From: Halopiger aswanensis
GTDB taxonomy: Archaea; Halobacteriota; Halobacteria; Halobacteriales; Natrialbaceae
Direction of reading: 5' to 3'
Assembly (NCBI RefSeq): GCF_003610195.1
Contig: NZ_RAPO01000002.1
Location: 558,001 to 622,000 of the forward strand
Length of the DNA: 64,000 nucleotides
Positions within the stretch are counted from its first letter, which is position 1; every line of letters starts with the position of its first letter. Below, in pieces: positions 3,457 to 7,992 of the stretch. The notes under the pieces were generated by a model. The model was not told the origin of the DNA. It searched no databases and saw only the letters and a list, made by a program, of their open reading frames with translations. The position numbers and the translations under genes are program-made.

Positions 3457-4515
3457 ATGGATACAGACGGGCTCGCCGGACTCCTCGAGCGGTTCGGTCT
3501 CTCTGAGAAGGAAATCGACACGTATCTCGCGATTCTCGACCACGGAGAGTCGAAAGCGAGCACGATCGCGGACGCCGCGGACGTCTCCAAGCGCTACGTC
3601 TACAGCATCAGCGAGGAACTCGAGGAACGCGGGTTCGTCGAGGTCGACGATCACGCGGTGCCGACGGTGATCCGCCCGGTCGATCCGGAGACGGTCGTCG
3701 AGCGGCTCACCCGCAGCGTCGAGGAGATGGAGCCGGAACTGCGATCGCGCTACACCACGACTGAGCGGCCGACCGAACAGTTCGAGGTCATCAAGTCGCG
3801 CCAGACCGTCCAAAAGCGCATCGAGAGCCTGCTCGCCGAGGCCGAGACGGAGGTCACGCTCTCGATCCCCGCGTCGGTGCTGCCGCAGGTCCGCGAAACG
3901 CTCGAGGAGACCGCCGAGCGCGGCGTACTCGTCTTGCTCCTGCTCGGGACGGCCGACAGCGACGTCGACACGGCGTCGCTCGCCGGCGTCGCGAGCACGG
4001 TTCGGACCTGGAACGCCCTCGTGCCGACGATGGTGACGGTCGACCGCCAACACGGCCTGCTCTCGCCGAGTCAACTGCTGACGACCTCGACGAGCGACAC
4101 GAAGGCGATCGCGCTCTCGCAGGAGCAACTCGTCCCCGTCCTCGCCGGCTCGTTCCTGGCGAACTACTGGCCGATCGCGGAGGAACGGTACGTGACGACG
4201 GCCGACGACCTCCCCGCGACCTACGAGGGGTTCCGCCACGCGGTCTTCCAGATCGCGCTCCATCTGGCGACCGACACGCCGCTCGAGGTCGACGTCACGG
4301 GCTCGCCGGTCGGCGACCGCGACCTCCCGTCGACGCTGACCGGCGAGGTCGTCGACGTCCGGCAGAGCCTCGTTCGCCCCGCCACGTCGACCGTCCCGAT
4401 CGAAAACGCGTTCGAGATCGACGTCGACGGCGACCGGTACACGATCGGGGGCGCCGGCGCCTTCCTCGAGGACTTCGAGGCGCAGTCGGTGACGATTCGG
4501 CCGCTCGAGGAGTAG
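3457..4515 (+). CDS. trmB: TrmB-family sugar-sensing transcriptional regulator
   Basis: The 352-residue protein starts with a winged helix typical of TrmB (LLERFGLSEKEIDTYLAIL, then a recognition-helix region around VSKRYVYSISEELEERGFV). A long effector domain follows, with QTVQKRIESLLAEAETEV and a sugar-binding-type C-terminal half. TrmB in Halobacterium senses glucose status and controls sugar catabolism and gluconeogenesis. I chose the ATG at 3457; the frame is open back to 3295, but a TTTTTA box at about 3417-3422 suits the inner start and the TrmB domain begins there. It lies directly upstream of KDPG aldolase (150-nt gap), next to a GH15 gene, and near two promoters with TrmB-like sites, so it is probably the local regulator. 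Confidence 0.9.
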   Translation: MDTDGLAGLLERFGLSEKEIDTYLAILDHGESKASTIADAADVSKRYVYSISEELEERGFVEVDDHAVPTVIRPVDPETVVERLTRSVEEMEPELRSRYTTTERPTEQFEVIKSRQTVQKRIESLLAEAETEVTLSIPASVLPQVRETLEETAERGVLVLLLLGTADSDVDTASLAGVASTVRTWNALVPTMVTVDRQHGLLSPSQLLTTSTSDTKAIALSQEQLVPVLAGSFLANYWPIAEERYVTTADDLPATYEGFRHAVFQIALHLATDTPLEVDVTGSPVGDRDLPSTLTGEVVDVRQSLVRPATSTVPIENAFEIDVDGDRYTIGGAGAFLEDFEAQSVTIRPLEE

Positions 4516-4665: not shown

Positions 4666-5319
4666 ATGACCGATCGCCGGACGGTCGAGGAACGGATCGT
4701 CGAGAGCGGCGTCATCGCGGTCATGCGCGGAATCAGCACGGAGCGGATCGTCCCCGTCGCCCGCGCGCTCCACGAAGGCGGGGTCGACGCCCTCGAGATC
4801 ACGGCCGACGAACCCCACGCCCGCGACAAGATCGCCGCGGTCGACCGGGAACTGGCCGATCCCGACGTGGTCGTCGGCGCCGGCACCGTCCTCGACGCCG
4901 CAACTGCCCAATCGGTGATCGACGCGGGCGCGACCTTCGTCGTCTCGCCCCACGTCGACCGGGAGATTATCCGCACCTGCAACCGCCACAACGTGCTCGC
5001 CTCGCCCGGCGTCATGACCCCGACGGAGGCGGTCACCGCGCTCGAGGCCGGCGCGGACATCCTCAAGATGTTCCCCGCCGAAACGGTCGGCCCGGGCCAC
5101 ATCGGCGCGCTCAAGGGGCCGCTGGGAAACGTCGAGATCATTCCGACCGGCGGCGTCTCCGCGGACAACGTCGCCGACTACTTCGACGCCGGCGCGCTGG
5201 CCGTCGGCGCCGGCAGCGCCCTGATCGATTACGACGCGATCGCGGACGACGACATGGACGGCGTCCGAGAGCACGCCGAATCGTTCGTCGAGGCGGTCGA
5301 AGACGCCCGCAGCGAGTAA
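4666..5319 (+). CDS. eda: 2-dehydro-3-deoxy-6-phosphogluconate (KDPG) aldolase
   Basis: This 217-residue class I aldolase of the bacterial Eda type splits KDPG into pyruvate and glyceraldehyde 3-phosphate, the last dedicated step of the semiphosphorylative Entner-Doudoroff route. The Schiff-base Lys is K134 in DILKMFPAE. The family Glu is E44 in ALEIT, and the phosphate-binding PTGGV is at 160-164. Length matches the family. It follows trmB after 150 nt on the same strand, with its own Shine-Dalgarno sequence, so the two may be co-transcribed. It could also act on the galacto epimer (KDPGal). KDG kinase, which makes its substrate, is not in the window. Confidence 0.92.
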   Translation: MTDRRTVEERIVESGVIAVMRGISTERIVPVARALHEGGVDALEITADEPHARDKIAAVDRELADPDVVVGAGTVLDAATAQSVIDAGATFVVSPHVDREIIRTCNRHNVLASPGVMTPTEAVTALEAGADILKMFPAETVGPGHIGALKGPLGNVEIIPTGGVSADNVADYFDAGALAVGAGSALIDYDAIADDDMDGVREHAESFVEAVEDARSE

Positions 5320-5591: not shown

Positions 5592-6662
5592 ATGCAAGCG
5601 ATCGCAGTCGAACCGGGGGCCGGCGAACCGACGCTCGTCGAGCGGCCTCGACCCGAACCCGAATCCGGGGAAGCGCTCGTGCGCACCCTTCGCGTCGGCG
5701 TCGACGGAACCGACCACGAAGTCATCGCGGGCCACCACGGCGACGTACCGAACGACGATACGCAACTCGTCCTCGGCCACGAAGCCGTCGGCGTCGTCGA
5801 GGACCCCAACGGCACCGACCTCGAGGCGGGACAGATCGTCGTACCGACGGTCCGACGGCGACCGAACGGGCACGGCAACGAGTACTTCGAGCGCGGCGAA
5901 CCCGACATGGCGCCCGACGGCGAGTACGTCGAGCGCGGGATCGTCGGCGCCCACGGCTTTATGGCCGAGTACTTCACCAGTCCCGCGGAGTACCTCATTC
6001 CGATTCCGGAGGAGCTCGCCCACCTCGGCTTCCTCGTCGAGCCGATCAGCATCTCCGAGAAGGCGATCGAACACGCGGTCGCCTCCCGCTCGGCGTTCGA
6101 CTGGGACCTCGAGTCGGCGCTGGTGCTGGGCAACGGCTCGCTCGGGCTGCTGACGCTCGGGATGTTCGCGGACGTCCTCGATATCGAGCGGACCTACTGT
6201 CTCGGACGGCGGGATCGACCGGATCCGACGATCGACATCATCGAGGAACTGGGCGGGACCTACATCGACTCCCGCGAAACGCCAGTGTCCGAAATTCCCG
6301 CCGCCTACGAGGGGATCGACCTCGTCTACGAGGCGACCGGCTACGCGAAACACGCCTTCGAGACGGTCGATGCGCTCGCCCCGAACGGCGTCGGCGTCCT
6401 GCTCGGCGTCCCCGAACCCTGGGAGTTCGAGGTCGACGGCGGACGGCTCCACCGCGAGATGGTCCTGCACAACAAGGCGCTGCTGGGCACCGTCAACTCC
6501 CACCGCGGCCACTTCGAGTCGGCCGTCGACACCCTCTCGCAGCTGCCGACGTGGCTCACGGGCGACCTCGTGACCGGCGTCTACGGCCTCGAGGAGTTCC
6601 AGCGGGCGTTCGAAACCGGCGACGGCGTCATCAAGACGGCCGTCGAGTTCTCGGCGCTCTGA
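5592..6662 (+). CDS. gdh: Glucose 1-dehydrogenase, halophilic zinc-dependent type
   Basis: This 356-residue medium-chain dehydrogenase oxidises glucose to gluconolactone, the first step of the semiphosphorylative Entner-Doudoroff pathway. The residues used for zinc and catalysis in Haloferax mediterranei glucose dehydrogenase are at the same positions: D38, H63, E64 and E150. The nucleotide fold has GNGSLG at 180-185. No structural-zinc Cys cluster is visible. It stands between KDPG aldolase and gluconate dehydratase on the same strand but has its own promoter, so the three genes are probably separate units under a common regulator. Confidence 0.94.
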   Translation: MQAIAVEPGAGEPTLVERPRPEPESGEALVRTLRVGVDGTDHEVIAGHHGDVPNDDTQLVLGHEAVGVVEDPNGTDLEAGQIVVPTVRRRPNGHGNEYFERGEPDMAPDGEYVERGIVGAHGFMAEYFTSPAEYLIPIPEELAHLGFLVEPISISEKAIEHAVASRSAFDWDLESALVLGNGSLGLLTLGMFADVLDIERTYCLGRRDRPDPTIDIIEELGGTYIDSRETPVSEIPAAYEGIDLVYEATGYAKHAFETVDALAPNGVGVLLGVPEPWEFEVDGGRLHREMVLHNKALLGTVNSHRGHFESAVDTLSQLPTWLTGDLVTGVYGLEEFQRAFETGDGVIKTAVEFSAL

Positions 6663-6725
6663 GACTGAGTGCGCGCAACGCGGACCCGTTTTCGACCGAC
6701 CGGATACTCACGAGATAGAAACTAT

Positions 6726-6741
6726 TACTACCGTCGGAGTA
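6726..6741 (+). promoter_or_regulatory. Exact TrmB-type operator in the gluconate dehydratase promoter
   Basis: TACT-ACCGTCG-GAGTA matches TACT-N7-GAGTA exactly. It overlaps the only TATA-like stretch (CTATTACTA, 6722-6730) and ends 12 nt before the ATG. A protein bound here would block the promoter, which suggests repression of this gene; direction and ligand are inferred. Confidence 0.72.
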
Positions 6742-6753
6742 AGGGTTCTTCCC

Positions 6754-7992
6754 ATGGGAGTCGATTACTCGCAGTTGCACGATCCAAACGCCGAGTATAC
6801 GATGCGGGACCTCTCGTCGGAAACGATGGGCGTGACCCGCGACCGCGGCGGCGACCGCGACGTCGAGATCACCGACGTCCAGACGACGATGGTCAACGGC
6901 AACTTCCCGTGGACCCTCGTGCGCATCTACACGGACGCGGGCATCGTCGGGACCGGTGAAGCCTACTGGGGCGCCGGCGTCCCCGAACTGATCGAGCGGA
7001 TGAAGCCGTTCATCGTCGGCGAGAACCCGCTCGACATCGACCGACTCTACGAACATCTCGTCCAGAAGATGTCCGGCGAGGGGTCGATCGCCGGCGTCAC
7101 CATCACCGCCATCTCGGGTATCGAGGTCGCCCTGCACGACCTGGCGGGCAAGATCCTCGAGGTGCCGGCCTACCAGCTGCTCGGCGGCAAGTACCGCGAC
7201 GAGATGCGCGTCTACTGCGACTGCCACACCGAGGAGGAAGCCGACCCCGACGCCTGCGCCGACGAAGCCGAACGCGTCGTCGAGGAACTCGGCTACGACG
7301 CCCTGAAGTTCGACCTCGACGTTCCCTCGGGCCACGAGAAGGACCGCGCGAACCGCCACCTGCGCGAGCCCGAGATCGAACACAAGGCCGAGATCGTCGA
7401 GAAGGTCACCGAGCGCGTCGGCGACCGCGCCGACGTCGCCTTCGACTGCCACTGGACGTTCTCCGGCGGCAGCGCCAAGCGACTCGCCGAGCGCCTCGAG
7501 GAGTACGACGTCTGGTGGCTCGAGGACCCCGTCCCGCCGGAGAACCACGACGTCCAGCAGGAGGTTACCCAGTCGACGACGACGCCGATCACCGTCGGCG
7601 AGAACGTCTACCGCAAGCACGGCCAGCGCCGCCTGCTCGAGGAGCAGGCCGTCGACATCATCGCGCCGGACATGCCCAAGGTCGGCGGCATGCGCGAAAC
7701 CCGGAAAATCGCCGATATGGCGGACACCTACTACGTGCCCGTGGCGATGCACAACGTCGCTTCGCCGGTCGCAACTATCGCCGGTGCCCACGTCGGTGCC
7801 GCGGTGTCGAACTCGCTGGCCATCGAGTACCACTCCTACGAACTCGAGTGGTGGGAAGACCTCGTCGAGGAAGACGTCATCGAGGACGGCTACATCGAGA
7901 TCCCCGAGGAGCCGGGTCTCGGCGTGACGCTCGACCTCGATACCGTCGAGGAGCACATGGTCGAGGGCGAGACCCTCTTCGACGAGGCGTAA
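6754..7992 (+). CDS. Gluconate dehydratase (enolase superfamily)
   Basis: This 412-residue protein belongs to the mandelate racemase/muconate-lactonizing subgroup. Metal ligands read as D231 (AFDCHW), E257 (WWLEDPV) and E283 (VGENVY), with K185 (ALKFDLD) and H333 (AMHN) as likely acid/base residues. In haloarchaea this family includes gluconate dehydratase (gluconate to 2-keto-3-deoxygluconate) and the related xylonate dehydratase. The neighbours, glucose dehydrogenase and KDPG aldolase, favour gluconate. An N-terminal stretch of about 35 residues precedes the usual family start. A TrmB-type operator overlaps its promoter. Confidence 0.88.
   Translation: MGVDYSQLHDPNAEYTMRDLSSETMGVTRDRGGDRDVEITDVQTTMVNGNFPWTLVRIYTDAGIVGTGEAYWGAGVPELIERMKPFIVGENPLDIDRLYEHLVQKMSGEGSIAGVTITAISGIEVALHDLAGKILEVPAYQLLGGKYRDEMRVYCDCHTEEEADPDACADEAERVVEELGYDALKFDLDVPSGHEKDRANRHLREPEIEHKAEIVEKVTERVGDRADVAFDCHWTFSGGSAKRLAERLEEYDVWWLEDPVPPENHDVQQEVTQSTTTPITVGENVYRKHGQRRLLEEQAVDIIAPDMPKVGGMRETRKIADMADTYYVPVAMHNVASPVATIAGAHVGAAVSNSLAIEYHSYELEWWEDLVEEDVIEDGYIEIPEEPGLGVTLDLDTVEEHMVEGETLFDEA

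Follow-up and report, generated by a model that had tools for sequence, protein, structure and literature searches.

TrmB-family regulators act according to where they bind: sites over or downstream of the BRE/TATA elements bring about repression, and sites upstream bring about activation (PMC4158304). Halobacterium salinarum TrmB recognizes the motif TACT-N(7-8)-GAGTA (PMC3794607; PMC4158304). In Haloarcula hispanica, the motif of TrmB (HAH_1548) is 19 bp long and partly palindromic, and ChIP peaks that contain it map to gdh, gapII, and ppsA (PMC10817205, Table 2). The gad gene is not among the 15 TrmB ChIP peaks of that species, and gdh, which is bound, showed no detected change in expression (PMC10817205).

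Here we analyzed a 64,000-nucleotide stretch of the Halopiger aswanensis genome (the window). It carries kdgA, gdh, and gad, which make up the semi-phosphorylative Entner-Doudoroff set, together with a gene for a TrmB paralogue (Table 1). We name gad as a putative gluconate dehydratase on the basis of family and gene context; matches of its product to the specific NCBIfam models fall below their cut-offs. A second gad (G000:C2:550819-552054; L054:7819-9054), located 13.9 kb upstream of the one in the window, encodes a protein 95% identical to the product of the latter. Its promoter contains only TTCCTACGGCTCGAGCCAA, which scores 10.5 bits with a position weight matrix (PWM) against 25.7 for the window gad, and the sister genome G024 has the same pair of gad copies.

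Table 1. Features of the window around the gad operator.
Feature	Position	Strand	Basis or remark
TrmB paralogue, HTH VSKRYVYSISEEL	3457..4515	+	PF01978 and PF11495, both above cut-off
KDPG aldolase (kdgA)	4666..5319	+	PF01081 and TIGR01182, above cut-off
Second putative operator, TTACTACGGACTAGGTAA	5542..5559	+	gdh promoter; right arm over BRE position
Glucose dehydrogenase (gdh)	5592..6662	+	Glu_dehyd_C
BRE adenines, -34/-33 from ATG	6720..6721	+	ATG-anchored profile; BRE position from PMC4158304
TATA-like element, overlapped by operator left arm	6723..6729	+	Sequence and ATG-anchored profile
19-bp near-palindromic putative operator, TTACTACCGTCGGAGTAAG (TTAC-N8-GAGTRAA)	6725..6743	+	Conserved upstream of gad
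Gluconate dehydratase-like gene (gad)	6754..7992	+	Enolase superfamily, 412 aa, MR_MLE_N/C

The first-pass annotation had singled out an exact TACT-N7-GAGTA match 12 nt before the gad start codon, over the TATA region. The letters and the open reading frame bear this out: TACTACCGTCGGAGTA at 6726-6741 (+ strand) matches the Halobacterium motif exactly, 12 nt separate it from the ATG at 6754, and an ATG-anchored alignment puts it across the TATA, reaching about -13. No other exact N7 match occurs in the window, where a mean of 0.03 is expected from 100 dinucleotide shuffles, two of which contained at least one. The annotation had also proposed a genome count, expecting enrichment upstream of sugar genes. 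Across the genome the short motif was not enriched: TACT-N7-8-GAGTA gave 17+17 oriented matches and its reversed pattern 14+14 (34 versus 28), although one other exact match lies upstream of a glucokinase gene (see below). More than half of the genome-wide short-motif matches inspected fall in coding DNA. A refined pattern, TWACT-N7-RRGTNA, was likewise not enriched across the genome (16 oriented matches versus 14 in the control), and gdh, gad, and gapII account for 3 of its 12 sites in the genome. On these counts, the exact match is by itself weak evidence; conservation, rather than the exact match, is what makes the predicted site real.

In the promoters of gad orthologues, TTAC-N8-GAGTRAA keeps a constant distance amid diverging flanks. 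In its strict form, TTAC-N8-RRGT, the pattern occurs in 69 of 111 gad promoters, beginning at -28 or -29 in 63 of these 69, against a background of 0.8% of random 60-nt stretches. When the right arm was relaxed and one extra spacing base permitted, the element was found over the TATA and the stretch after it in 61/65 Natrialbaceae promoters, and in 18/34 promoters from other families. Anchored at the ATG, the gad profile shows AA at -34/-33 (BRE), a TATA rich in T and A at roughly -30 to -26, and a separate right arm, GAGTRAA, kept at about -16 to -10; as read from this profile, the right arm is not core promoter. The distances of BRE and TATA from the ATG suggest that the gad transcript is probably leaderless, with the site overlapping the TATA. 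The 6726-6741 match is thus most likely part of a real TrmB operator, as judged by conservation. A one-mismatch site just upstream (6705-6720) is alike in the sister genome and not kept beyond the genus, and we did not count it.

The same architecture recurs at other promoters. The gdh promoter carries a second element (Table 1), which is kept in relatives. ACT-N7-GAGT, with a background of 1.4% per 120 nt, lies upstream of the TATA in the gapII promoters of 27 of 29 genomes, and a looser version of the element lies upstream of the TATA in the ppsA promoters of 19 of 22. A PWM trained solely on gad sites of genomes without a trmB of the window type recovered, in most genomes, the gapII element at the same position; the ppsA element was recovered less reliably. 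Another Haloarcula TrmB target, fbp, sits directly 3' of another CDS in most genomes examined and so has no promoter of its own to compare.

Several other sites in the genome drew our attention. A perfect TAACTCAATTTCGAGTTA palindrome (G000:C3:263363-263380; L353) lies between divergent genes for type I and type II GAPDH, so that one TrmB site could face both a glycolytic and a gluconeogenic enzyme. TAACTCCGTCCGGAGTGA (G000:C1:174953-174970; L349) stops 11 nt short of the ATG of a gene for an acetate--CoA ligase of alpha type, probably ADP-forming, in a geometry that matches the site at gad. Another possible TrmB target is a gene for a glucokinase of the ROK family, which has an exact TACT-N7-GAGTA palindrome (G000:C1:793345-793360; L004) some 50 nt upstream. 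A different palindrome, TACTCG-N4-6-CGAGTA, stands right where the reading frames begin for several small, mutually related proteins (MMWQDLVFLAGS...) that are membrane-like and have no Pfam match, at L076 (G000:C3:359755), L354 (G000:C3:711970), and L021 (G000:C3:610421); it is probably the operator of another regulator, one that would inflate the count of the short TrmB motif.

Which TrmB would read the gad site? The gene that the first-pass annotation had proposed does end 2.2 kb upstream of it, but a nearby gene named trmB need not be the intended regulator in a genome that carries four proteins above the PF11495 cut-off. We used as reference the H. salinarum protein (VNG1451C); the sole PF11495 protein of G136 is identical to that of H. 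salinarum DSM 3754. It is 65% identical to a protein encoded on another contig (G000:C1:14209-15270) and 29% identical to the product of the window gene. The NCBIfam equivalog for halobacterial TrmB (NF047392, cut-off 500 bits) scores the first at 608 bits, H. salinarum TrmB itself at 580, and the window protein at 134, which leaves the last outside the halobacterial TrmB family and makes the gene on the other contig, hereafter core TrmB, the true H. salinarum TrmB orthologue. One part of the earlier interpretation is supported: a glucose-catabolic gene has a TrmB-type operator, conserved across the order, on its core promoter. Its choice of the neighbouring trmB as the Halobacterium regulator does not hold.

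The paralogue could nevertheless be the cognate repressor, possibly sharing the operator with core TrmB: it adjoins kdgA-gdh-gad, has both TrmB domains, and within the family its close orthologues frequently lie in the vicinity of gad. We consider this unlikely. Beyond its low identity and score, its recognition helix is divergent, and the site does not come and go with it. Of 121 Natrialbaceae, 46 carry a trmB of the window type (75% identity or more). Within this family the gad element is equally common in genomes with it (31/32) and without it (30/33; Fisher p 0.61), and the gdh element, too, is kept in genomes that lack it. Some genomes counted as lacking it carry a relative at 50-53% identity; many others, among them G008, G036, G079, G095, and G108, have nothing closer than about 30%. 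The gad element is independent of the neighbouring trmB, and the core TrmB found order-wide is the best candidate and most likely the regulator.

Genomes that have lost core TrmB offer built-in controls. Five of them keep gad (G158, G069, G038, G011, and G056), and none of the five has the gad element, compared with 79/99 genomes with TrmB (Fisher p 6e-4, which overstates the case because the five represent only two lineages). In the Natrialbaceae genome G011 (L326), the element is lost at gad, gapII (L085), and ppsA (L166) with the genes kept, and the TATA regions remain at gapII and ppsA; this genome looks like a natural knockout of the TrmB regulon. Core TrmB and gad are both present in G149 and G157, in whose gad promoters the element was not found, and in G081, the one TrmB-bearing member of genus g12, whose gad site is weak; we therefore set g12 aside as a clean case of TrmB loss. 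H. salinarum does not use carbohydrates for energy. Its gad site (L320) looks decayed, and TTTACAC-N6-CGAGTGAA is kept in the members G147, G193, and G140 of its genus group.

These losses also bear on whether the conserved element is simply the core promoter (BRE, TATA, and initiation region), with the TrmB match a coincidence. In favor of this, the left arm does coincide with the TATA, and the short motif lacks genome-wide enrichment. However, the GAGTRAA arm is conserved outside BRE and TATA, the same pattern appears away from the TATA in gdh, gapII, and ppsA, and the TrmB-less G158 retains its AT-rich core and has lost the right arm, all of which makes a core promoter alone very improbable. 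We give equally little credence to another sugar regulator reading the gad element, such as GfcR, which in Haloferax volcanii activates genes for the degradation of glucose and fructose and whose mutation in Har. hispanica leads to poor growth on glucose (PMC11519228). One would not expect an activator on the TATA and downstream of it. The element also fits the TrmB motif, is found again at TrmB ChIP targets, gluconeogenic genes among them, and is missing where core TrmB is missing.

We therefore favor control by core TrmB, and think it probable that the 19-bp element is an operator at which this protein, acting in trans, represses gad and gdh without glucose and activates gapII and ppsA, with glucose causing its release. 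Sequence, position, conservation, orthology, and independence of the neighbouring trmB are observed directly; binding, its direction, and the glucose signal are inferred. Without glucose, core TrmB would bind over the gad TATA and the DNA just downstream, blocking TBP/TFB or polymerase and keeping gad repressed; the second operator, overlapping the gdh BRE, would repress gdh likewise. Operator copies upstream of the TATA at gapII and ppsA would meanwhile switch gluconeogenesis on. Glucose would then free TrmB from its operators and open the Entner-Doudoroff branch. The direction of each effect is predicted from position, with operators over the TATA (gad) and BRE (gdh) pointing to repression and those upstream of the TATA (gapII and ppsA) to activation; that glucose is the signal for release is assumed by analogy with H. 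salinarum and Har. hispanica.

If one TrmB acted in both directions in this way, depending on where it binds, it would switch haloarchaea between breaking glucose down and making it. Published Haloarcula work covers mainly the activating, gluconeogenic half of TrmB control, and for the other half the Entner-Doudoroff dehydratase gene, with its conserved operator on the TATA, offers a predicted repressed target that can be tested. More speculatively, and with clearly less confidence, gad may be a direct core TrmB target that is conserved order-wide and did not show as a peak in the single saccharolytic species with ChIP, the gad with a decayed operator 14 kb apart may supply enzyme so that the cell has it both with and without glucose repression, and the local paralogue may add a second sugar input.

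How does this locus compare with described systems? The operators of TrmB, TrmBL1, and Tgr in Thermococcales (TACT-N3-AGTA and TATCAC-N5-GTGATA) are likewise palindromes that repress from over or downstream of BRE/TATA and activate from upstream, with sugar controlling binding, but their half-sites or spacing and their target genes are different. The regulon proposed here resembles that of Har. hispanica TrmB in the targets gdh, gapII, and ppsA, and the motifs of the genes repressed there overlap the BRE, as the gdh operator does here; the Haloarcula motif and the gad element were set side by side by description, and the two systems differ in that gad is absent from the Haloarcula peaks. As for H. 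salinarum TrmB, the gad site matches its operator motif exactly and its orthologue is encoded in this genome, but where H. salinarum has no sugar catabolism and a gad site that looks decayed, the target here is a glucose-catabolic gene.
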